DNA from: Bryobacterales bacterium
GTDB lineage: Bacteria > Acidobacteriota > Terriglobia > Bryobacterales > UBA6623
NCBI GenBank assembly: GCA_026713545.1
Contig: JAPOOG010000115.1
Location: 45,951-109,950, forward strand
Length of the DNA stretch: 64,000 nucleotides
Reading direction: 5' to 3'
Each line of letters begins with the position of its first letter. Positions within the stretch are counted from its first letter, which is position 1. Positions 36,077 through 60,034 of the stretch are shown piece by piece. The notes under the pieces were generated by a model that saw nothing but the letters and a program-made list of their open reading frames with translations, was not told the DNA's origin and did no database searches. The translations under genes were made by a program, and so were the position numbers.

Positions 36077-37324
36077 ATGAAACGCAGACAGCTTTTCAAG
36101 ACACTCGGCTTGGGCGCCGCGGCAGCACTGTTGCCGCCGGATCTGAGGTCTTCTCCACCGGAGACCGATCTAAAAATTACTTCGGTTCGCGTCGTGAGGG
36201 TGAGGCCGAAGCGTCCGGTGCCGCGATATGAGCCCGCGCCGGGTTCTTGGTCGACAGGCCGGGTGGAGGTGGCGAACCCTGTCTCGATCTATCCCGAGTA
36301 CAAGCCGATGCGGAGCCTGTTCATGCCTGACCCGGGCGGCGTGTCAAGCTTCTGGGTCGAAATCGGAACGAACAAGGGTCTCACCGGCCTTGGCCGGGGA
36401 GGCCCCGGCGGCGGACCGATCATCGAGGGCCATCTGACCAAACTTCTACTCGGTGAGAACGCACTCAATATCGAGCGCATCTGGGACCTGCTCTGGCGGG
36501 CCACAATGTACTACGGCCGCAAGGGTATCGTGCCGAATGCGCTCAGCGGCATTGACCTGGCGCTCTGGGATATCGCCGGCAAGGCCTGGGGGCTTCCCGT
36601 CTATCGCCTGCTCGGCGGCGAAACGAAGCCACGTATCCCTTCCTACTGCACCGGCAACGACATCGAGCAGCACGTCGAGTTCGGCTACGCGAAACTGAAG
36701 CTCGCGCTGCCGCACGGCCCGGCCGACGGACGCGAAGGCATTCGCAAGAACGTGGCGCTCGTCAAACGCGCTCGCAAAGCCGTGGGGAAAGACGGCATTG
36801 TGGCCATGGATTGCTGGATGGCTCTGACCGAACGGTATACGATCGAACTGTGCGAGGCCTTCGAACCCTACCGCGTGTACTGGATGGAAGAGTGCCTCCC
36901 ACCTGACGACTATGAGGGCTTCGGGCGGCTTCGGGAACAAATCAAGTCAACCCGTATCGTGACCGGCGAACACGTCTACACCCGCTACGGGTTCCGGCAG
37001 TTGCTTCGAACGAACGGCGCGGAGATCTGGCAGCCGGACATCCACTGGTGCGGAGGCTTGACGGAGATCCGGCGCATCGGCGCTTTGGCAGCGGCCTATG
37101 ATATTCCGGTGATTCCGCACGGCGGCGGTCAGCGCGACGCGATCCACTATGTGATGGCGACGCCGAACAGTCCCTGGGCAGAAATGTTCATGCCAGCGCC
37201 CGGCGGCCCCGATGAGGTCTACGAACGCTACGAACAAGACAACAACCTGACCCGCGGACCTGAGGGCATCTACACGCGCCCGTCGGACGAGCCGGGGTTC
37301 GGATGGGATGTCGAAGTGGTTTGA
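36077..37324 (+). CDS. L-rhamnonate-dehydratase-like enzyme with Tat-type signal
   Basis: 415 residues. The N-terminus MKRRQLFKTLGLGAAAALLP is a twin-arginine signal. The barrel fits the RhmD group: KLALPHGPADG, AMDCWMALT, WMEECLPPDDY, TGEHVYTRYGFR, QPDIHWCGGLTE and the PHGGG segment near the general base. RhmD enzymes dehydrate L-rhamnonate and related 6-deoxy or six-carbon acids. Together with the upstream gene it suggests two linked acid substrates, one processed outside the cytoplasm. Confidence 0.85.
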   Translation: MKRRQLFKTLGLGAAAALLPPDLRSSPPETDLKITSVRVVRVRPKRPVPRYEPAPGSWSTGRVEVANPVSIYPEYKPMRSLFMPDPGGVSSFWVEIGTNKGLTGLGRGGPGGGPIIEGHLTKLLLGENALNIERIWDLLWRATMYYGRKGIVPNALSGIDLALWDIAGKAWGLPVYRLLGGETKPRIPSYCTGNDIEQHVEFGYAKLKLALPHGPADGREGIRKNVALVKRARKAVGKDGIVAMDCWMALTERYTIELCEAFEPYRVYWMEECLPPDDYEGFGRLREQIKSTRIVTGEHVYTRYGFRQLLRTNGAEIWQPDIHWCGGLTEIRRIGALAAAYDIPVIPHGGGQRDAIHYVMATPNSPWAEMFMPAPGGPDEVYERYEQDNNLTRGPEGIYTRPSDEPGFGWDVEVV

Positions 37325-40914: not shown

Positions 40915-42153
40915 CTAAATGAAAGCGATCGAGCCGTCGGCCCGGTAACCAGTACCGCGCTTCCAGGGTCTCGGCGGCATGCTGGGGAAGGCCTCTTCGT
41001 TCAACTCGACGCCCCAGCCGGGTTTGGTGGGGATGTCGACATAGCCGTCCTTTACCATGATCGGCTCTTTAAGAACGTCTTTTGACGCTCCGGAAACGGG
41101 CGCGCGGTATTCCAGAATCAGGAAGTTCGGCGTGGACGCGGCGAAATGGACGTTCACGGCAGTGGCGAGCGGGCTCATGGGGTTGTGCGGCGCGACCATG
41201 ATGTATTGGGCCTCGGCCATGGCAGCGATCTTTTTCATCTCCATGATGCCGCCGCAGACACAGATGTCGGGCTGCACAATGTCGAGCGCCTGGATGTTGA
41301 TCAAATCGCGGAATTCGTACTTGGTGTAGTTGCACTCGCCGCTTGCCAACGGGATGTTGACATGGTCGGCTAGCTTCTTCATCGCATCGAAGTTCTCGGG
41401 GCGGATGGGTTCTTCGAGCCAGAACGGGTAGAAGGGCTCGATTTCCTTCGCGACGCGAATCGCTCTCTGGACCTCGAAATAGCGGGCGTGGATATCAACT
41501 CCAATATCCACATCCGGGCCCACGGCCTCACGCACGGCGCCGACCCTTTGACCGGCAATGCGCGTGACCATGTTGTACGGCATCTGATTATCGCCGCGAT
41601 TGTGAGGTGACATCTTCACGGCGGTGTAGCCGTGCTGCTCGATCAAACGCTCGGCGTTTTCAGCGGCCTCCTGCGGACTGCTGCCGCCGATACTCTGATA
41701 AACACGGACTTTCTGGCGGACACGCCCGCCGAGAAGAGCCCAGCAGGGCAGCCCCGCCGCCTTGGCCGTGATGTCCCAGAGCGCGTGCTCGATGCCGCTG
41801 AGGGCCGAGTTGACGACAGAGCCGCCAGGGAAGCGCGTGGTGTTGTACATCAGGTCCCACAGGTATTGGATGTTTCGAGGGTCCTGGCCAACCAACCAGA
41901 GCTTGTAATCTTCGATGACTTTGACAGTTGCTTCATCAGGGCCGCAGGAATAAGCCTCGCCGATGCCTTCGATTCCCTGGTCGGTGAGCACCTTGACGTA
42001 GATCCAGTTTCGGCCGCCGTTCCAGACCATGAACGTCTTGATGTCGGTGATCTTGATCGCAGGCTTGTCGCCCATCGGAGCGGGCGCCTGGAAAGGCGCC
42101 GCCGCCAGTGGAGCCGCTACGGCGGCATTGCCGAGAAACTGTCTTCGCCTCAT
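40915..42153 (-). CDS. Tat-exported galactonate/mannonate-dehydratase-like enolase-superfamily enzyme
   Basis: 412 residues. MRRRQFLGNAAVAAPLAAAP is a twin-arginine signal. The enzyme has GVDIHARYFEVQ, an Asp-x-His pair as in DgoD, then WLEEPIRPEN, ASGECNYTKYEF, QPDICVCGGIMEM and APHNPMSP with the His base. It resembles the gene at 10780 in motif set but the active-site loop differs (VKMSPHNRGDNQ). Only 35 bp separate it from the Gfo/Idh/MocA gene upstream, so both are likely in one operon and act in one periplasmic route; the route is inferred. Confidence 0.87.
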   Translation of the reverse strand: MRRRQFLGNAAVAAPLAAAPFQAPAPMGDKPAIKITDIKTFMVWNGGRNWIYVKVLTDQGIEGIGEAYSCGPDEATVKVIEDYKLWLVGQDPRNIQYLWDLMYNTTRFPGGSVVNSALSGIEHALWDITAKAAGLPCWALLGGRVRQKVRVYQSIGGSSPQEAAENAERLIEQHGYTAVKMSPHNRGDNQMPYNMVTRIAGQRVGAVREAVGPDVDIGVDIHARYFEVQRAIRVAKEIEPFYPFWLEEPIRPENFDAMKKLADHVNIPLASGECNYTKYEFRDLINIQALDIVQPDICVCGGIMEMKKIAAMAEAQYIMVAPHNPMSPLATAVNVHFAASTPNFLILEYRAPVSGASKDVLKEPIMVKDGYVDIPTKPGWGVELNEEAFPSMPPRPWKRGTGYRADGSIAFI

Positions 42154-45399: not shown

Positions 45400-46431
45400 T
45401 CAGTTACGTTGCTCGGGAACGTTCGTGACCCAGTCCAGGATGCGGTCCATCGGTTGAGCTTGTTCTGTAATCCCGGTGGCTATCTTGACCGGTGCGGCCC
45501 GGCTGTCGTCGGTTCGGATTCTGCCTTCTTCGGCGCCGGTCGTCACTACACGAAGTGACTTCTTTTCGAACCGCAGGCCCTCGGGATGCAATAGGGCCAG
45601 AACCGACGCCCCATCCCAGAGGTAATAGCGGCCGGTTTGGATCAGATGCTCGACCGCCCCGAGGATTCCTGCGGCCAGACGAGCTCCGTGAGAACGGTTA
45701 CGCTTCAAGCGGTCCAACCACGCTTGATTCAAGGGCAGTTCATTCGTTACGTCCAACGGCACGATCGTGATGTCGAGCCCTTGAGCGGCCATCGCGATCA
45801 CCCGGTCCGCTCCGACCGGGTCCACAAAGAAGTTGTACTCGGCGGTCGCCAGCACTTCGGGTATCTCTGGGTCCCGCACGTTTCCCGGTACTCGCAACGC
45901 CCCGCCCATCACGACAAGCCGCTGGACGTTGCCGAGCAGATCCGGGCGCCGATCAAAAACAGCCGAGATGTTCGTCAACGGTCCCGTCGCCAGGACCGTT
46001 ACCGGTTGCTCGGCGTTCTCGAGCAAATCTACCAGCAACGCAACGGCGGCGCGGCGATCCGATCGCACATCCAGACCGTGGAGCATGGGAAGAGCCCTTA
46101 TGTAACTGCTCGTATCCCGCCATGTCTCGGGGAAGCTGTTCCGTCCGCGCAAGGCAGGATCGTGCCCCGCCACGGGCACATCGAATCCCATGGCCTCCAA
46201 CAACAGGCCGGACGTTTCGACAGCGCTGTCGCGGTATCCCAGCCCGTAGCTGACTGTCACGCCACGCAAGTCACAACAGCGTGAACCCGCCAGCATCAGC
46301 AGCGCGATGTAGTCGTCCGGCGCCCCGTCGTGGTCCAGGATGAGCGGAATCAAACCACGCTCGTCAACGCAGCTATTGAGCATCAGGACGACTGTCACGA
46401 GCGCACTTACAAGCCACGTTCGAGGTCTCAT
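45400..46431 (-). CDS. Inosine/uridine-preferring nucleoside hydrolase, lipoprotein
   Basis: 343 residues from MRPRTWLVSALV, giving a lipobox VLMLNSC. The calcium-binding cluster is LDHDGAPDDYIAL in place of the usual DTDxGxDD. Other motifs are LATGPLTNIS, VVMGGALRVPGN, EYNFFVDPVGADRV and the Asp in YLWDGASVL. The enzyme splits the N-glycosidic bond of nucleosides or related N-ribosides; as a lipoprotein it would do so in the periplasm. A GTG 15 codons upstream overlaps the stop of the PLP gene by one base (TAGTG), so the two are coupled whatever the exact start. Confidence 0.85.
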   Translation of the reverse strand: MRPRTWLVSALVTVVLMLNSCVDERGLIPLILDHDGAPDDYIALLMLAGSRCCDLRGVTVSYGLGYRDSAVETSGLLLEAMGFDVPVAGHDPALRGRNSFPETWRDTSSYIRALPMLHGLDVRSDRRAAVALLVDLLENAEQPVTVLATGPLTNISAVFDRRPDLLGNVQRLVVMGGALRVPGNVRDPEIPEVLATAEYNFFVDPVGADRVIAMAAQGLDITIVPLDVTNELPLNQAWLDRLKRNRSHGARLAAGILGAVEHLIQTGRYYLWDGASVLALLHPEGLRFEKKSLRVVTTGAEEGRIRTDDSRAAPVKIATGITEQAQPMDRILDWVTNVPEQRN

Positions 46432-46475: not shown

Positions 46476-47672
46476 CTAGGCGCTCTGCGTCATGATCTCA
46501 GCGAGCCGCGAGGCTACGATTTGGTCTTCCCCTTCCCGCAGCATCCAGACGCCCAACTCGATCCGGTCGGGAGGGCTTGACCGTACTTCGATCGACGGCG
46601 TGCCCATGCGCAGTTGCTCCTTGACCTCGGCCGCCGTGAACCCCAGCTTTGCCTCGTCCCAAAGAATCCGAAGGTGGGGGACATGGTAGTGGAGCGGAGG
46701 CGCAAACATCTCCGTCTTGATGCCGTCGATCTTTGAGACTTCGTCCGCGATGAATTTTACACGGCGCTCCCACTCCTGCCAGTCGGCGTCGTGGTCACGC
46801 TGCAGGTAGACCTCGACAGCAACGAGCATCGCAAGTAACGTCTCTTTACTCACCTTCATCCCACGGCCGATGCCACGGCTGTTCGGTGGAGCATTCACTC
46901 GGGCCGCCTTGATGAGATCCTTGCGACCCAGCAGGAGGCCGGCGTTCTGCGGGCCACAAATTCCCTTCCCTCCCGAGACGGTTACCAAGTCGAACCCCAT
47001 GTTCAGGTATTCCCAAAGATGCTCTTTCGGCGGTACGTCCGCGGCGCAATCGTCGAATGTCGGCACATTGTGTTTCTTGCCCAGTTCCGCGAACTCGGCG
47101 ACCTTGATCCGGCCATCCGGATCGTTAGTGTTGTTGAACAGCATCATGGCCGTGTTCTCGTTGATCGCGCCTTCGAGTTCTTCGCGTGTTTCAACCTCCA
47201 CGAACCGAACACCGCAATTCAGCACCGCCCGTTCATATCCGTAGCGGTGCGCTTTCTGGATAATCACTTCGTTCTTCAGACCTGTGGTATCCGGTAGTTG
47301 CTGAACGGCCTTGGACTCACCACGGGTAACGCACGCGGCCGTGCCCAGCGTCAGTCCTGACGCGGCGCCCGCCGTGACCATCGCCGCTTCGCAACCGGTC
47401 ATCTCCGCCAGCTTCTTGCCGACGGCATCGTGCAGGTCGTTGAGACGGACATAACGTGATGAAGCATAGACGTAGGCCTCGACGGCCTCGCGAGGCATCA
47501 GCGCCCCGGTGAGCATCGTGTACGGTTCTGCCGCGTTGATGAACTCGGTCAGTCCCAACTCGGCGAAATAATCGCGTGAGGCCGCCTTGGGAGGCGACAA
47601 CGTACATCCCGAACCACCCACGCCCAGCAGCGCGCCCGAGACACCGCATAAAAACCCTCTACGATTCGTCAT
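46476..47672 (-). CDS. Exported PLP-dependent SelA-like enzyme (Tat signal plus lipobox)
   Basis: 398 residues from MTNRRGFLCGVSGALL with AGGAG six bases upstream. The signal has the Tat motif and ends in GSGC, a lipobox, so a Tat-exported lipoprotein is likely. The fold is the selenocysteine synthase/cystathionine type: TAGAASGLTLGTAA, DDCAADVPP and the PLP Lys in VSGGKGICGPQNAGLL. Relatives act on D-glucosaminate phosphate or seryl-tRNA; this group is largely uncharacterised. The nucleoside hydrolase follows without a gap. Confidence 0.8.
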   Translation of the reverse strand: MTNRRGFLCGVSGALLGVGGSGCTLSPPKAASRDYFAELGLTEFINAAEPYTMLTGALMPREAVEAYVYASSRYVRLNDLHDAVGKKLAEMTGCEAAMVTAGAASGLTLGTAACVTRGESKAVQQLPDTTGLKNEVIIQKAHRYGYERAVLNCGVRFVEVETREELEGAINENTAMMLFNNTNDPDGRIKVAEFAELGKKHNVPTFDDCAADVPPKEHLWEYLNMGFDLVTVSGGKGICGPQNAGLLLGRKDLIKAARVNAPPNSRGIGRGMKVSKETLLAMLVAVEVYLQRDHDADWQEWERRVKFIADEVSKIDGIKTEMFAPPLHYHVPHLRILWDEAKLGFTAAEVKEQLRMGTPSIEVRSSPPDRIELGVWMLREGEDQIVASRLAEIMTQSA

Positions 47673-49943: not shown

Positions 49944-51212
49944 TCAGGCGAGCCGATTCTTCAAGTCCGTTACACCGGCGATGGCGCGCTCGACGTGCTC
50001 CATCGTGTTGTAGAGGTGCGGGCAGAGCCGCAACCCTCCGGTCGCAGATCCCGCAATGCCGTATTTGTCATACATCGCGTTGACCAAGTCTCTGCGATTC
50101 TGATCAGGCACCTCGACGATGCACACGCCGCCGCTGACCTTCTCATCCATCGGCGTCACGAGCTTCGCGCCGACATCCCGCAAACCCTTCTTGAGAGTCT
50201 GGACCAGGGCGTAGAGGCGACCTTCGACCGCGGCAGGGCCGAGCATGGCGTGCATGTCGGCCATGGTGCCGACCGCGGCTAATCGTGAGTCGTCCCTCTG
50301 GCCGAAAGACTCGAACTTCCGTGCTCCCTGGAGAGCGGTTTCGGCTTTTTTCCCCCAACTGGGAGCCACAATGTTCGGCCACACTTCGCCGATGCGGTCT
50401 TTCTTGATGTACAGCAGTCCTACTTCGCGTGGGCCGCAAAACCACTTGTGCGAGCTGGCCGTGTAGGAATCGCAACCTATGTCATGGACATCGAGCGCTA
50501 CCGCGCCCCAGGACTGAGCGCCGTCGAGGTGATAGTAGATGCCTCGCCGCTTCGCCACAGCTCCGATCGCCATGACGGGGAGCCGGATCCCGCTGACGTT
50601 CGAGATGTGGGTGATCGACAGCAGCCGCGTGCGATCGGAGAGCTCGGCCTCGATGGCGTCGACGAGCGCTTGCTCGTTTTCAGGCTGTTTCGGGACAGCG
50701 ATACGCCTGACCGAGAAGCCTCGACGCGCGGATCGGACATCCCAAGCGACGTTGTTGGTGGGATGGTTCTGTTCCCAGATGACGACTTCATCTCCCTTGC
50801 CGAGCGAGAGGCCATTGTTGATGACGTTGTTGGCCTCGCTTGTGTTGCGGACCAGGGCAACCTCGTCCGGGTCGGCTCCGATGCCTTCGGCGACCTTGCG
50901 GCGCGACTCTTCCAGCAGCTTGCCGAACTTGCCGCGGTTGTTGAACGAGCAGTCATGATCGATGTCCCGCGTGAAGCGGACCACCTGTTCGGTCACGACC
51001 CGCGGCGAAGGACAGAGGTTCGCGGCGTTCATCGGCACCTTGGAGTCGTCGAACGGAAACTGCTGACGCACGAGCTCCCAACGCGACTCGATGCCGGCGG
51101 TAGCCGCGAGAGCGGGGCGGAGTTCCGCAAGGGAGGCAACGGCGGAGGGCAAGAACGCGGTGCTGCCAGCCAAGCTCTGCAAGAACGAACGGCGGGACGG
51201 GACGGTGGGCAT
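49944..51212 (-). CDS. Tat-exported class V aminotransferase-fold PLP enzyme
   Basis: 422 residues from MPTVPSRRSFLQSLAGSTAF, with AAGGAG five bases upstream; the ORF-track start at 51314 is in another region without a site. SRRSFLQ and the hydrophobic stretch form a twin-arginine signal. The fold is cysteine-desulfurase or kynureninase-like: VRNTSEANNVINNGL, HHLDGAQSWGA-type motif (YYHLDGAQSW) and the PLP Lys in SSHKWFCGP. The family covers isopenicillin-N-epimerase-like enzymes. Exported, cofactor-loaded PLP enzymes like this one are usually uncharacterised. Confidence 0.87.
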   Translation of the reverse strand: MPTVPSRRSFLQSLAGSTAFLPSAVASLAELRPALAATAGIESRWELVRQQFPFDDSKVPMNAANLCPSPRVVTEQVVRFTRDIDHDCSFNNRGKFGKLLEESRRKVAEGIGADPDEVALVRNTSEANNVINNGLSLGKGDEVVIWEQNHPTNNVAWDVRSARRGFSVRRIAVPKQPENEQALVDAIEAELSDRTRLLSITHISNVSGIRLPVMAIGAVAKRRGIYYHLDGAQSWGAVALDVHDIGCDSYTASSHKWFCGPREVGLLYIKKDRIGEVWPNIVAPSWGKKAETALQGARKFESFGQRDDSRLAAVGTMADMHAMLGPAAVEGRLYALVQTLKKGLRDVGAKLVTPMDEKVSGGVCIVEVPDQNRRDLVNAMYDKYGIAGSATGGLRLCPHLYNTMEHVERAIAGVTDLKNRLA

Positions 51213-54277: not shown

Positions 54278-56155
54278 CTACCGTTTGATCATCCAGCCGC
54301 GATCCCAGGGATGTGCGAGGGTCGGCTGATTGGCATAACGCTTCATCTTGAACACCATCTGCGCGCCGGAGCCGGGCTCCAAGCGGACATTCAAGATCGG
54401 CGAATCGATTTCCGTGGTCTTGCCGTTGATCGTCGCCGAAAGAAACTGGTGCTCTCCATAGCCGCCGGCCTGAACGGTGACGGGCCGTGCTTCGGTCTGG
54501 CTCACGTTGACCAGAGTGAGCGTGAGCGAGTCGTCGGTCATCTTCTCGACCAGCGACGCCACGTCCTCGGGAGGGCCGGCCCGGCGATTCGCGGGGTCGA
54601 AGTAGCGGACGCGGCTATGCAGGGTCCAGAGCTTACCCGCAAAATAGCCGCCGAGCATCAGGTTCGTCAACGTATCCGTCTGCGCGGGCGAGAAACCGAG
54701 CAGATAGTCGGCCAGCCGCGTGTCGGGGGAGGTATCGTCCTCATCAATCCGCCGGATCTGCCTCCGGATCGTTTCGAAGTCACGTTGGAGCGCCTGTTCC
54801 GGGTAATCGGGATTCTTGCCCTCCAGAAATCCGACCCAGCCGTCCATCGGGACATGCTCCAGATCGTCGCGGTCCATCGACCACAGGTACACCTCCGTGG
54901 CGCGGCCAAGGTGCGGCTTGCCGCCGAAGCGGTACCACTCGGGCTTGCCGTTCTTGGTGTGATGGCGCGGATCGCCGTACATCGAAGGATAGACTTCCTT
55001 GCCATCGACGATCTTCTTCTGGGCATAGACAAGATCAAGCTGCTTGCGGAGAACGCCGACGTAGGCCTGATCGCCGGTCAGCAGGAATGCATTGCTGAAT
55101 CCAGGCCAACTCCCGGACGTTACGGTGTTGCGGTGCGCGATCCGGTCGATTTCACCGTCGTAGATCGTGAAGTTCCAGCCGTAGGTGCCTTTCCACCACT
55201 GGCCGTCGTACTCGCCGCCGATCTTGCCGTTGAGCCCGATATTGGTCGGTATCATCCCGCCGGCTTCGGCCACCCGGCCTTTCCAGGCGTTGACATACTC
55301 GAGCACCCAGTCGCGGTACTTGTCTTCGTGGGTAAGCATGTAGGCGCGCAGAGCCAGATTCGTAGCCCCGAGATTGAGCGGATGGTCGCCGACGCTGTCG
55401 AGATACTCGGCGCAGTGGGACAGCATCTTGTCATAGACGGACATGAGATCAACGAGCTTGTTGCGTCCATGAGGCCCGTGCAGTATGTGAAACATCCCCG
55501 GGACCGGATCGCCGACCCAATCGTAGGTCGTCGCCTTGTGCATCATCGGTCCCTTGCTGCCGTTCCAAATGCTGCGGATGATCTTGTGCTTGGGATCGTA
55601 GTTGGGTGCGGACGGATCTTCGTTCATGTACAGCCCGGCGAAGCGTTTCATGCGGGTGCGAAACGTCGTGTTCGCAGGTTCGGAGAGGCCCTGGAACATG
55701 ATGCCCCGCATCCCCTCGCCGGTATGGAACCAGTCGGACTGCGTGATGAACTCCTGGTGGTAGGAGCCGTTTTCCGACAGCTTGGTCAGGGTCGTTTTCA
55801 ACTCACCGTACTGCTTGTAGTGGCCTTCGAGCCCTTTCTTGAAAAGCTCCAGGACTTCATCGGAGCCGCCGAGGGCGTGGAGCAGAGTCCAGTTGTAGTA
55901 GGTCTCGATCGCGTCGTCGGGGCCGTCGAGCGTCCCCCAGCGAGGAGTATGCAGCAGATAGCCTCGGTCGTCGATGTAACGGTCACCGAAGTGAAGGACG
56001 GCCCGGGAGTTGGCGTCAAGCAGAGCGCGCTCCATCAGCGCCCAGCCGGGGGGAGGCATGGGAGTGTCGATAACGATGGTATTCTCAGCCACCGCCGGGG
56101 ACAGGGCGACGAGCGCGATGAGCGCGGATGCAAGCAGGGTTCGATAAGACGACAT
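54278..56155 (-). CDS. Large exported protein, possibly six-hairpin glycosidase-like
   Basis: 625 residues from MSSYRTLLASALIALVALSPAVA, a signal peptide with GGAG ten bases before ATG; the ORF-track extension to 56578 runs through repeat C3 and is spurious. The protein is rich in aromatic and hairpin-like segments (YNWTLLHALGGSDEVLELF, HQEFITQSDWFHTGEGMRGI, WKGTYGWNFTIYDGEID, YLWSMDRDDLEHVP), suggesting an alpha/alpha-barrel of glycan-active type, with a C-terminal beta domain (LTLTLVNVSQTEARP). No catalytic motif was identified; function unknown. Confidence 0.55.
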   Translation of the reverse strand: MSSYRTLLASALIALVALSPAVAENTIVIDTPMPPPGWALMERALLDANSRAVLHFGDRYIDDRGYLLHTPRWGTLDGPDDAIETYYNWTLLHALGGSDEVLELFKKGLEGHYKQYGELKTTLTKLSENGSYHQEFITQSDWFHTGEGMRGIMFQGLSEPANTTFRTRMKRFAGLYMNEDPSAPNYDPKHKIIRSIWNGSKGPMMHKATTYDWVGDPVPGMFHILHGPHGRNKLVDLMSVYDKMLSHCAEYLDSVGDHPLNLGATNLALRAYMLTHEDKYRDWVLEYVNAWKGRVAEAGGMIPTNIGLNGKIGGEYDGQWWKGTYGWNFTIYDGEIDRIAHRNTVTSGSWPGFSNAFLLTGDQAYVGVLRKQLDLVYAQKKIVDGKEVYPSMYGDPRHHTKNGKPEWYRFGGKPHLGRATEVYLWSMDRDDLEHVPMDGWVGFLEGKNPDYPEQALQRDFETIRRQIRRIDEDDTSPDTRLADYLLGFSPAQTDTLTNLMLGGYFAGKLWTLHSRVRYFDPANRRAGPPEDVASLVEKMTDDSLTLTLVNVSQTEARPVTVQAGGYGEHQFLSATINGKTTEIDSPILNVRLEPGSGAQMVFKMKRYANQPTLAHPWDRGWMIKR

Positions 56156-57087: not shown

Positions 57088-57918
57088 ATGCCGCCCCGCA
57101 AGGCGCGCCCCCCGCTCGGACAGCACTTCCTGCGCGACGCGTCCGTATGCGCCCGGATCGCTGACGCCATCGTTTCGCCGCCGGAGGCTCATGTGATCGA
57201 AGTCGGGCCGGGGCGCGGCGCACTGACCGGACACCTGGCGGCCAAAGGGGTTCCGCTCACGGTCGTCGAGGTTGACGAGGCGCTGGCCGACGGGCTGCGA
57301 CAGAAGTACGAAGGGCAAGCGCGGGTCGAGGTAATTTGCGCGGACATCCTCGATATCGACTTGCCGGACCTGATCGTACAGAGAACAACGGGCCGCGCCG
57401 TCATCGCCGGGAATCTGCCGTACTACATCACGTCGCCCATAGTGCGTACAGTATTCTCGGCCGCGGCCCGAATCGAGCAGTCAGTCTTTCTGATCCAGAA
57501 GGAAGTCGCTCTGCGGCTCGTCGCCCGCAAAGACTCGCGCGACTACGGCTTCCTCTCCGTTCTGTGCCGGCTTCATGCCGAGCCGGAGTTGTTGTTCAGC
57601 GTGCCACCGGAGGCTTTTCAACCCTCACCCGAGGTCACTTCCGCAGTAGTGCGGCTCAGGATACGGCGTGACATACACGCCGCCCCCCGTTTCATCGACT
57701 TTCTCCAACGCTGTTTTGCTCATCCGCGCAAGAAGCTGCTGAACAACCTCTGTGGGATCTATCCGAGGGAAACCCTGCGGCGGAGCCCCGAGACCGAACT
57801 AAGGGCGCAGCAACTCGATCTCGAAGAATTGCGGACGCTTTGGACCACGCTGGAGGAAGCTTCGCCGCCCCGCATCGCGAGGTCGCGACTGCCGCCGCAT
57901 GGTATGATTGACCGCTGA
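57088..57918 (+). CDS. rsmA: 16S rRNA dimethyladenosine transferase
   Basis: 276 residues, GGAGGG just before ATG. It dimethylates the two adjacent adenosines in the last helix of 16S rRNA. Conserved motifs: PLGQHFLRDASV, VIEVGPGRGALTGHLA (SAM site), the target-base motif AGNLPYYITSP and FLIQKEVALRLVA, and the C-terminal PPEAFQPSPEVTSAVV. It is the first gene after the repeat hub and stands in front of the aldolase gene. Confidence 0.96.
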   Translation: MPPRKARPPLGQHFLRDASVCARIADAIVSPPEAHVIEVGPGRGALTGHLAAKGVPLTVVEVDEALADGLRQKYEGQARVEVICADILDIDLPDLIVQRTTGRAVIAGNLPYYITSPIVRTVFSAAARIEQSVFLIQKEVALRLVARKDSRDYGFLSVLCRLHAEPELLFSVPPEAFQPSPEVTSAVVRLRIRRDIHAAPRFIDFLQRCFAHPRKKLLNNLCGIYPRETLRRSPETELRAQQLDLEELRTLWTTLEEASPPRIARSRLPPHGMIDR

Positions 57919-58001
57919 ATCCCGGCCCCAATACGGCATTGACCAGAGGTCCCTGTCCGTTTCTCGGTGCAAACGAACTACCGGTCCCAATGGAGGGAAA
58001 C

Positions 58002-58964
58002 ATGAAGAGGTTCCTGTTACTCGTTGCTGTCTTCGCCGCCGCCGGCTTAGTCAACTTGTCCATCGTCGAGTCGGCGGCGCCGCCCGCCGACAAGCGGATC
58101 AACCGCGCGATCGAACTGCTTGAGAAAGACCAGCCCATCTACTACACCCAGATCGCGGCGACCGACATCGACTACGAAAAAGGCAAGGAGATGGTGAACA
58201 CCTGGGCCGACTACATCAGCGTCGAGATGGAGCACGGCGCCTACAACATTCCCGGTCTGCGGGCCTTCATGCGGGGCCTGGTCGATGCCGGCCCGACGAA
58301 GAGCGGCCACCGCACGCCCACCGTGATCTGCACGCTCCCCGTGGGCGGCATCAGCGCCGAAGTCATGCGGGCGAACTACTGGATGGTCGAGCAGGTGCTG
58401 GGATCGGGCGTTCATGGCATTCTTCTGTGCCATGCCCGTTCACCCGAGGCCGTTCGGGTGTTGGTGGAATCCTCGCGATTCGTGACCAATAAACGTGCTG
58501 TGGGATCAGGCGGTCTCGGCGAGGGCATGCGAGGCGCCGGCGGACAAGGTTTCGCTTCCCGCATATGGGGCATCAGCGGCGACGAATACACCAGAAAGGC
58601 CGAGCCTTGGCCGCTGGATCCCGAGGGCGAGATTCTGCTCGGCCTGAAGATCGAAGACCGTCATGCTCTGCAGAATGCCGAGGCGAGCGCCGCTGTTCCC
58701 GGCATCGGATTCGCCGAATGGGGTCCGGGTGACATGGGCATGTCCCTGGGCATACCCGGACCGGAGGGCCGCAGCTCACCGATCATGCAGCAGGCCAGGA
58801 AGAAGGTCTTCGATGCGACCAAGAAGGCCAAGATCGCGTTCCTGAACGGCGTCACCCCGGAAAACGTCAAGCAGATGATCGACGAGGGTGTGCGAATCGG
58901 CTCGGGCGGTCAGGAAGCGGCGGAGATCGGCCGCAAGTACACGAAGCGCAAGATGCCCTGGTAG
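58002..58964 (+). CDS. Exported HpcH/HpaI-like aldolase
   Basis: 320 residues from MKRFLLLVAVFAAAGLVNLS with GGAGG five bases before ATG. Residues 1-26 are a Sec signal, which is unusual because HpcH/HpaI aldolases normally work in the cytoplasm on 2-keto-3-deoxy acids and 4-hydroxy-2-ketoacids. Core motifs: YISVEMEHGAYN and GISAEVMRANYWMVEQVLGSG match strands of the class II aldolase barrel, with GIGFAEWGPGDMGMSLGIPG near the active site and a C-terminal INGVTPENVKQM-like helix (FLNGVTPENVKQ). It could split the keto-deoxy acids made by the exported dehydratases; that is an inference. Confidence 0.8.
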   Translation: MKRFLLLVAVFAAAGLVNLSIVESAAPPADKRINRAIELLEKDQPIYYTQIAATDIDYEKGKEMVNTWADYISVEMEHGAYNIPGLRAFMRGLVDAGPTKSGHRTPTVICTLPVGGISAEVMRANYWMVEQVLGSGVHGILLCHARSPEAVRVLVESSRFVTNKRAVGSGGLGEGMRGAGGQGFASRIWGISGDEYTRKAEPWPLDPEGEILLGLKIEDRHALQNAEASAAVPGIGFAEWGPGDMGMSLGIPGPEGRSSPIMQQARKKVFDATKKAKIAFLNGVTPENVKQMIDEGVRIGSGGQEAAEIGRKYTKRKMPW

Positions 58965-58972
58965 CGGCCCGA

Positions 58973-60034
58973 TCAATACAGCCGCACACCCCGCGGACCC
59001 GGCGGCAACTCCATGTGGACCGAGTCGACGAAGCGAACTTTCCGCGACGCCTTCGTCATGACCATCGTCTGACTCCGGCAGCCTTCGCCAAAGAACCGGA
59101 TGCCCTGCAAGATCCCCCCACCGCTGAGGCCGCCCGTCACGCCGGTGGCGGCGAAGATGATCGTCTTGCCGGGGGCAAGGTCTTCCGAGCTGTAGACACG
59201 ATGGGGGTCGGTGATCCCCATGCGCTTGACGCGCTCTTCGAGTTCCGGCGTATCGATCACAAGCCGGCCCAGCATCTCTCCGTGAAGACAGCGCATCGCA
59301 GCCGCCGAGATCACACCTTCCGGCGCGCCGCCAATGCCCATGACCGCATGAACGCCCGTCCCCCGAATGGCGACGGATACACCCGCCGACAGGTCGCCAT
59401 CGCCGATCAGTCGAATGCGGGCGCCCGCCTCGCGAATCTCCCGGATCAGCTTCTCGTGGCGCGGCCGGTTCAGGACGACGATGGCGAGGTCGTCCACGTC
59501 GCGGTCGAGAGCACGGGCGATACGCTTCAGGTTTTCCGACACCGGCAGGTCAAGATCAACCTTGCCGCGGCAGGCCGGGCCGACGATGATCTTTTCCATG
59601 TAGCAGTCGGGGGCGTGCAGGAGACCGCCCTTTTCCGATGCGGCCAAAACGGCGAGCGCGCCCGGTGTGCCCGTGGCGCAAAGGTTCGTCCCTTCAAGGG
59701 GGTCCACCGCGATATCGACTGCGCGGTATTCTCCTTCATTCCCCGAGCCCGGCCCGACCTTCTCCCCGATATAGAGCATCGGCGCTTCGTCGCGCTCGCC
59801 CTCGCCGATGACGATCGTGCCGTCAATCGGGACGTCCTCGAAGGCCGTGCGCATTGCTTCGGTGGCCACGCGGTCGGATTCCTTGCGATCGCCATTGCCC
59901 ATGGTGCGGGCGGCAGCGATGGCCGCTTTTTCGACCACGCGGATGAGTTGCAAGGAGAGTTCTTCTTCCTCCTGCACGGTCATGCTGCCGAACTTGGTTT
60001 CCCCGCCCGGCCAGAGGCCGATTGTGTCATTCAT
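58973..60034 (-). CDS. glpX: Fructose-1,6-bisphosphatase class II
   Basis: 353 residues, no signal. GlpX motifs: [48 protein letters not shown] with the metal-binding Asp-Glu pair, and a C-terminal [16 protein letters not shown]. It makes fructose 6-phosphate for gluconeogenesis, fitting a cell that lives on sugar acids and acetate (malate synthase). Converges with the aldolase gene eight bases away. Confidence 0.95.

Follow-up and report, generated by a model that had tools for sequence, protein, structure and literature searches.

A leader-bearing HpcH/HpaI-like protein with an altered active site in a Bryobacterales bacterium, and its possible exported dehydrogenase partner

The gene, its start and its surroundings

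The stretch of DNA analyzed here (64 kb, referred to as the window) belongs to a 5.6-Mb genome in 170 contigs, assigned to the order Bryobacterales of the Acidobacteriota. An aldolase-like open reading frame on its forward strand (58002-58964) encodes a product of 320 amino acids (Table 1), the nearest named record of which is from Bryobacterales bacterium RHO3_bin_12 (97% identity). The flanking genes are of housekeeping type, and a functional rsmA/aldolase/glpX operon was considered and rejected, as the arrangement is seen within the genus only.

Table 1. Features of the aldolase-like gene and its immediate neighbors. Residue counts refer to 115 subfamily members.
Feature	Position	Strand	Basis or conservation
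RsmA/KsgA-type rRNA methyltransferase, upstream neighbor	57088..57918	+	Named by eye; synteny kept in genus
Ribosome-binding site GGAGGG	57992..57997	+	Sequence; about 5 nt ahead of ATG 58002; also at starts of same-genus relatives
Sec-type leader, residues 1-25 (cleavage approximate)	58002..58076	+	Kept in same genus and in 38 acidobacterial tree members
Mature HpcH/HpaI-like barrel, residues 26-320	58077..58961	+	Pfam PF03328, AlphaFold2, Foldseek
H78, equivalent of catalytic His (GarL H50, HpaI H45)	58233..58235	+	His in 97/115
T111, at position of enolate-stabilizing Arg (GarL R75, HpaI R70)	58332..58334	+	T 77, V 22, D 5, E 5, N 3
G134, at position of GarL D89	58401..58403	+	A 84, L 12, G 11
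K216, at position of GarL Q151, two residues ahead of metal Glu	58647..58649	+	Lys 115/115
E218, metal ligand (GarL E153)	58653..58655	+	115/115
D244, metal ligand in GPGDMG (GarL D179)	58731..58733	+	115/115
GlpX-type fructose bisphosphatase, convergent neighbor	58973..60034	-	Named by eye; synteny kept in genus

The N-terminus reads MKRFLLLVAVFAAAGLVNLSIVES|AAPP, with a KR n-region, an 11-residue core of mean Kyte-Doolittle value 3.0 and small residues at its end; by our reading, cleavage would fall near residues 24-26. On sequence criteria, these n-, h- and c-regions at a supported start are those of a Sec-exported protein. The next in-frame start codons are a TTG at codon 19, which lacks a ribosome-binding site, and an ATG at codon 64, which lies within the fold. 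Leaderless relatives begin two to three residues ahead of the equivalent of R32, and the 58002-58964 gene has no start codon at that position, so that a start downstream of the leader appears in practice to be excluded. In comparison with the same-genus genome G002, identity is 44% over the leader and 87% over the mature part, the pattern expected for a signal sequence. Codon changes in the mature part between the two genomes number 102 synonymous vs 38 nonsynonymous, and this part of the protein is evidently under constraint. The preliminary description of this DNA had proposed a Sec signal peptide with a strong ribosome-binding site at its start, and had allowed that translation might instead begin beyond it; the n- and h-regions, same-genus conservation, leaders in acidobacterial relatives and the GGAGGG site bear out the proposal, and the TTG and ATG codons are the next in-frame starts. 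We infer that the protein is exported through Sec.

Other products of the window also carry leaders. These include a SelA-like protein (46479-47672, -), a class-V aminotransferase-like protein (49947-51212, -) and a nucleoside hydrolase (45403-46431, -), which look like further members of normally cytoplasmic families that are seemingly exported. A 625-aa leader-bearing protein (54281-56155, -) has no Pfam or NCBIfam match; a homologue (E 3.5e-174) at L081:2643-4409 is two genes from a SAR202 member of the aldolase subfamily. A link between this protein and the aldolase was considered for the L081 homologue and set aside, the same-genus locus L010 being without it nearby.

Fold and active site

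Pfam PF03328 (HpcH_HpaI) matches at 34.3 bits against a cut-off of 25, over residues 130-303 only (profile positions 79-212 of 221), while the scores for the NCBIfam HpaI equivalog (25.9 bits vs a cut-off of 368.8) and further HpaI-type equivalogs (17.7-22 bits vs 393-441; 22 vs 441 and 17.7 vs 406.75) fall well short. The AlphaFold2 model, built on 72 relatives, has a pLDDT of 96.0 and a pTM of 0.94. Its top Foldseek matches in the PDB are all HpcH/HpaI aldolases, the first including 4mf4, AbHpaI, GarL, HpaI, SbnG, YfaU and SwHKA, and a profile search of PDB sequences returned the same families. The family and fold originally proposed are thus upheld, and the predicted class II HpcH/HpaI aldolase barrel is firm; a specific enzyme name is not. 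The protein is a member of a distinct, uncharacterized subfamily.

The nearest structure by both profile (3.5e-24) and fold (6.1e-16) is 4mf4, an HpcH/HpaI-family protein of Burkholderia cenocepacia whose entry title gives no function; it is 18% identical, keeps the Arg (VVRVP) and has a chain without a leader. The 4-hydroxy-2-oxoheptanedioate aldolase HpaI/HpcH, a class II pyruvate aldolase (4b5s, 2v5k, 7et8), has the same barrel (TM by target length about 0.75-0.80) and shares the Glu/Asp metal ligands and catalytic His at 16-19% identity. It differs in that HpaI Arg70 is replaced by Thr in the window's protein, Gln147 (which, from database annotation, we take to be a substrate ligand) is replaced by Lys, and the Asp partner of His (presumably HpaI Asp84) is lost; the window's protein also has a longer core with a WPLNPxGE loop, as well as its leader. 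The metal site is likewise common to the E. coli aldolases of the superfamily, for which GarL serves as yardstick, but unlike these the window's protein is leadered and has no linked dehydratase operon. SbnG citrate synthase (4tv5; 18% identity), part of siderophore synthesis, employs the same fold for a reaction other than aldol cleavage.

Residue equivalences were drawn from E. coli GarL and YfaU and the 115 subfamily members, with geometry taken from the alignment only. In HpaI, Arg70/72 and His45/47, together with the metal water, have been linked to substrate specificity, C-C cleavage and enolate stabilization (PMC8560999; PMC7610986). The preliminary description had advised that metal and substrate residues be checked for loss. 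The metal ligands E218 and D244 are intact and H78 is kept; the Arg has become Thr, the Asp partner of His is gone and Gln has become Lys. With all three replaced, the ordinary cleavage of 2-keto-3-deoxy acids, including 2-keto-3-deoxygalactonate, cannot be assumed. The catalytic His is itself replaced by Phe in 14 of the 115 members, and H138, H144, W203-P-L and E239-W240 are further subfamily-specific invariants. Among 23 other sequences compared (GarL and YfaU included), 21 keep the Arg, none of these 21 having Lys at the Gln position, and one (L091) has Lys in place of the Arg. The remaining one, an HpaI paralogue of canonical length in the window's own genome (L003, G000:C80:24236-24829), has the same pair of changes, Arg to Thr and Gln to Lys; the pair being found on two separate branches, Lys (K216 here) seems to take over the charge of the lost Arg. 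The genome's second leadered member (L090, G000:C120:7027-7953) is among those with Phe at the catalytic His position. Loss of the Arg as a consequence of secretion was rejected, as leaderless members are also without it; the Arg, Asp and Gln changes, being common to these members, are a mark of the subfamily and not of decay after secretion.

Distribution of leaders and gene neighborhoods

Across a tree of 96 rows, outgroup included, a leader is present in 38 of 40 acidobacterial ingroup rows (the other two, L099 and L112, could not be scored); all 53 ingroup members from outside the phylum (Chloroflexota, Latescibacterota, Poribacteria, Gemmatimonadota, Pseudomonadota, Campylobacterota, Bacillota, Abditibacteriota, and Rokuibacteriota) lack one. 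Over the full tree, with the outgroup counted, the leader label has to change twice; the ingroup is basally leaderless and may have gained the leader only once, the two leadered clades sitting in an unresolved fork. Since leaders in the tree are confined to Acidobacteriota, export looks like an old, kept trait of that phylum. In a wider sample, the subfamily is present in 21 of 297 acidobacterial genomes and its non-fused members with a readable start are mostly leadered. None of the eight canonical HpcH/HpaI paralogues with a readable start in the window's own genome has a leader. Leaders also occur on some acidobacterial HpaI-like proteins that are more distantly related and retain the Arg (L138, L139, L117), so that export has originated on at least two branches. 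One clade has MTRKQFL-type leaders, which look Tat-like but carry RK, not RR.

Fused forms were found in eight genomes (family f49), where the aldolase domain ends a long open frame (L164:2656-5268 (+), L165, L166, L169, and others). In the two that were scanned, a right-handed beta-helix (PF13229, DUF1565) forms the N-terminal part and itself has a leader-like N-terminus; most frames read have no start codon at the junction with the aldolase part, in which GPRDL stands in place of GPGDM. In this family, the leader is probably carried by the beta-helix domain.

Neighborhoods were clustered on called genes (seven loci had no target call). A D-2-hydroxyacid dehydrogenase recurs near the aldolase in Poribacteria, Caldilineaceae, Geminicoccaceae, another Chloroflexota member, Campylobacterota and Bryobacteraceae. 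Latescibacterota have an Ldh_2 gene and, two genes from the subfamily member, a canonical aldolase that retains the Arg, and 2-oxo-acid dehydrogenase genes occur in Caldilineaceae (E1 and E2) and in a Dehalococcoidia (E1). These recurrent neighbors point to 2-oxo-acid metabolism as the context of the subfamily. The window's genome holds about 15 strong 2-hydroxyacid dehydrogenase matches, from which a chance neighbor within ten genes would be expected, as a rough estimate, in only a few per cent of loci. Two of these matches (on C147 and C134) are within about 0.3 kb of canonical aldolase matches, so that the pairing is general in the superfamily. By eye, leaderless members in a Peptococcaceae (L074:5250-11961) and a campylobacterote (L087:3657-11225) lie in similar surface-glycan-like clusters with a CMP-sugar synthetase, epimerase, HAD phosphatase, cyclase and 2-hydroxyacid dehydrogenase.

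In two acidobacterial lineages, the D-2-hydroxyacid dehydrogenase adjacent to the aldolase also has a leader. Genomes G064 and G090 (family f22) have a leadered aldolase head-to-head with a leadered dehydrogenase that has its own ribosome-binding site (the G064 dehydrogenase leader is MHTRFALRTVIWCLLLIVAQGQSRVLAAK); at L020, the dehydrogenase downstream of the aldolase is leadered from a GTG start. The leadered dehydrogenases include that of L167 (L167:7362-8408, +). At the poribacterial loci L049 and L050, a dehydrogenase of the same subfamily (45-46% identity) is encoded near the aldolase, and neither enzyme has a leader. The window's genome encodes a leader-bearing dehydrogenase of this subfamily (L188, G000:C48; leader MTRTLLILFAFVWTLGAQ), unlinked to 58002-58964. 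D-2-hydroxyacid dehydrogenases with a leader of Sec type are found widely across acidobacteria, Bryobacteraceae among them, with GxGxxG and most catalytic motifs kept.

A possible extracytoplasmic 2-oxo-acid enzyme

Both class II pyruvate aldolases and NAD-dependent 2-hydroxyacid dehydrogenases ordinarily work in the cytoplasm, and an exported bacterial aldolase of this kind was not found by title or abstract in the open-access literature, coverage of which is incomplete. The reading we put forward, to which we give about an even chance, is that the 58002-58964 protein is an extracytoplasmic metal-dependent 2-oxoacid lyase or aldolase acting with an exported D-2-hydroxyacid dehydrogenase. The leader would deliver the enzyme through Sec; E218 and D244 would hold a divalent metal, and H78 with the metal water would serve as acid/base. 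K216 would play the part of HpaI Arg70, placing a positive charge close to the carboxylate or enolate of the substrate, and the enzyme would make or break a C-C bond next to the carboxylate of a 2-oxo acid outside the cytoplasm. In sequence with it, the dehydrogenase would convert the 2-oxo acid to the 2-hydroxy acid and back. The lyase chemistry and the role of K216 are presumptive, as is the pairing in the window's genome, where the leadered dehydrogenase is unlinked. NAD(H) is normally not available outside the cytoplasm, and a dehydrogenase exported through Sec crosses unfolded and cannot carry a bound cofactor. This supply problem weakens the two-enzyme route and is the main reason that confidence in the mechanism is only moderate; either the cofactor is present outside, or the enzyme binds it once exported, or the two proteins have another function. 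Also counting against the proposed function are the housekeeping-type neighbors in the window, the substitution of Phe for the catalytic His in L090, and loss of an Arg that matters in HpaI by mutagenesis (PMC8560999; PMC7610986).

Several other explanations were weighed. That the protein is not exported at all, its supposed leader being either an artifact of the start call or a cytoplasmic helix at the N-terminus, is highly improbable given that an alternative start codon is absent and the ribosome-binding site sits at the leader start, that the leaders of 38 acidobacterial relatives vary in sequence yet share one design, and that both the partner dehydrogenase and the fusion behind a beta-helix have leaders or leader-like N-termini of their own. 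Little probability attaches to a secreted pseudo-enzyme with a binding or structural role: loss of the Arg and Asp, and Phe for His in some members including L090, would suit lost activity, but the metal ligands and K216 are invariant, leaderless members have the same changes, which therefore do not follow export, and the synonymous excess indicates constraint on the mature part.

The preliminary description had envisaged exported dehydratases and the aldolase completing a periplasmic dehydrate-and-cleave path. Two leadered enolase-superfamily proteins do occur in the window: a Tat-type protein (40918-42153, -) that passes the NCBIfam galactonate dehydratase cut-off (330.9 vs 311) and an L-rhamnonate-dehydratase-like protein (36077-37321, +) under cut-off. 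The fold and metal ligands of the aldolase-like protein fit cleavage of 2-keto-3-deoxygalactonate or a similar compound, and in three leaderless relatives (L042, L046, L081) a gene of the enolase superfamily lies no more than five genes away. However, the dehydratases are about 16 kb or more from the aldolase and absent among the recurrent neighbors of leader-bearing members, whose recurrent partner is a 2-hydroxyacid dehydrogenase and not a dehydratase; with the active-site Arg, Asp and Gln all replaced as well, such a route is possible but unlinked, and we judge it distinctly unlikely. That the barrel catalyzes some other reaction outside the cytoplasm (isomerase, hydrolase, decarboxylase, or an SbnG-like citrate-synthase condensation) also seems rather unlikely, the closest structures being aldolases and the context 2-oxo-acid metabolism. 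Such a reaction would be in keeping with the subfamily-wide change of three catalytic positions and the additional invariant residues, a rebuilding that would mark new chemistry, and with the canonical aldolase two genes away in Latescibacterota, the two enzymes there probably not being redundant.

On the preferred reading of a lyase acting with an exported dehydrogenase, Acidobacteriota may, tentatively, possess an extracytoplasmic 2-oxo-acid module in which an exported aldolase subfamily with a novel active-site arrangement (Arg to Thr with Gln to Lys) and an exported D-2-hydroxyacid dehydrogenase moved out jointly from a cytoplasmic pair still found in other phyla. That both enzymes seem to be exported, and are encoded next to each other in two lineages, poses the question of what carbon chemistry takes place outside the membrane, and the exported dehydrogenase that of where its cofactor would come from. 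The exchange of Arg and Lys represents a natural experiment on enolate stabilization by the HpcH/HpaI barrel, for which the invariant Lys offers a single mutation for testing.
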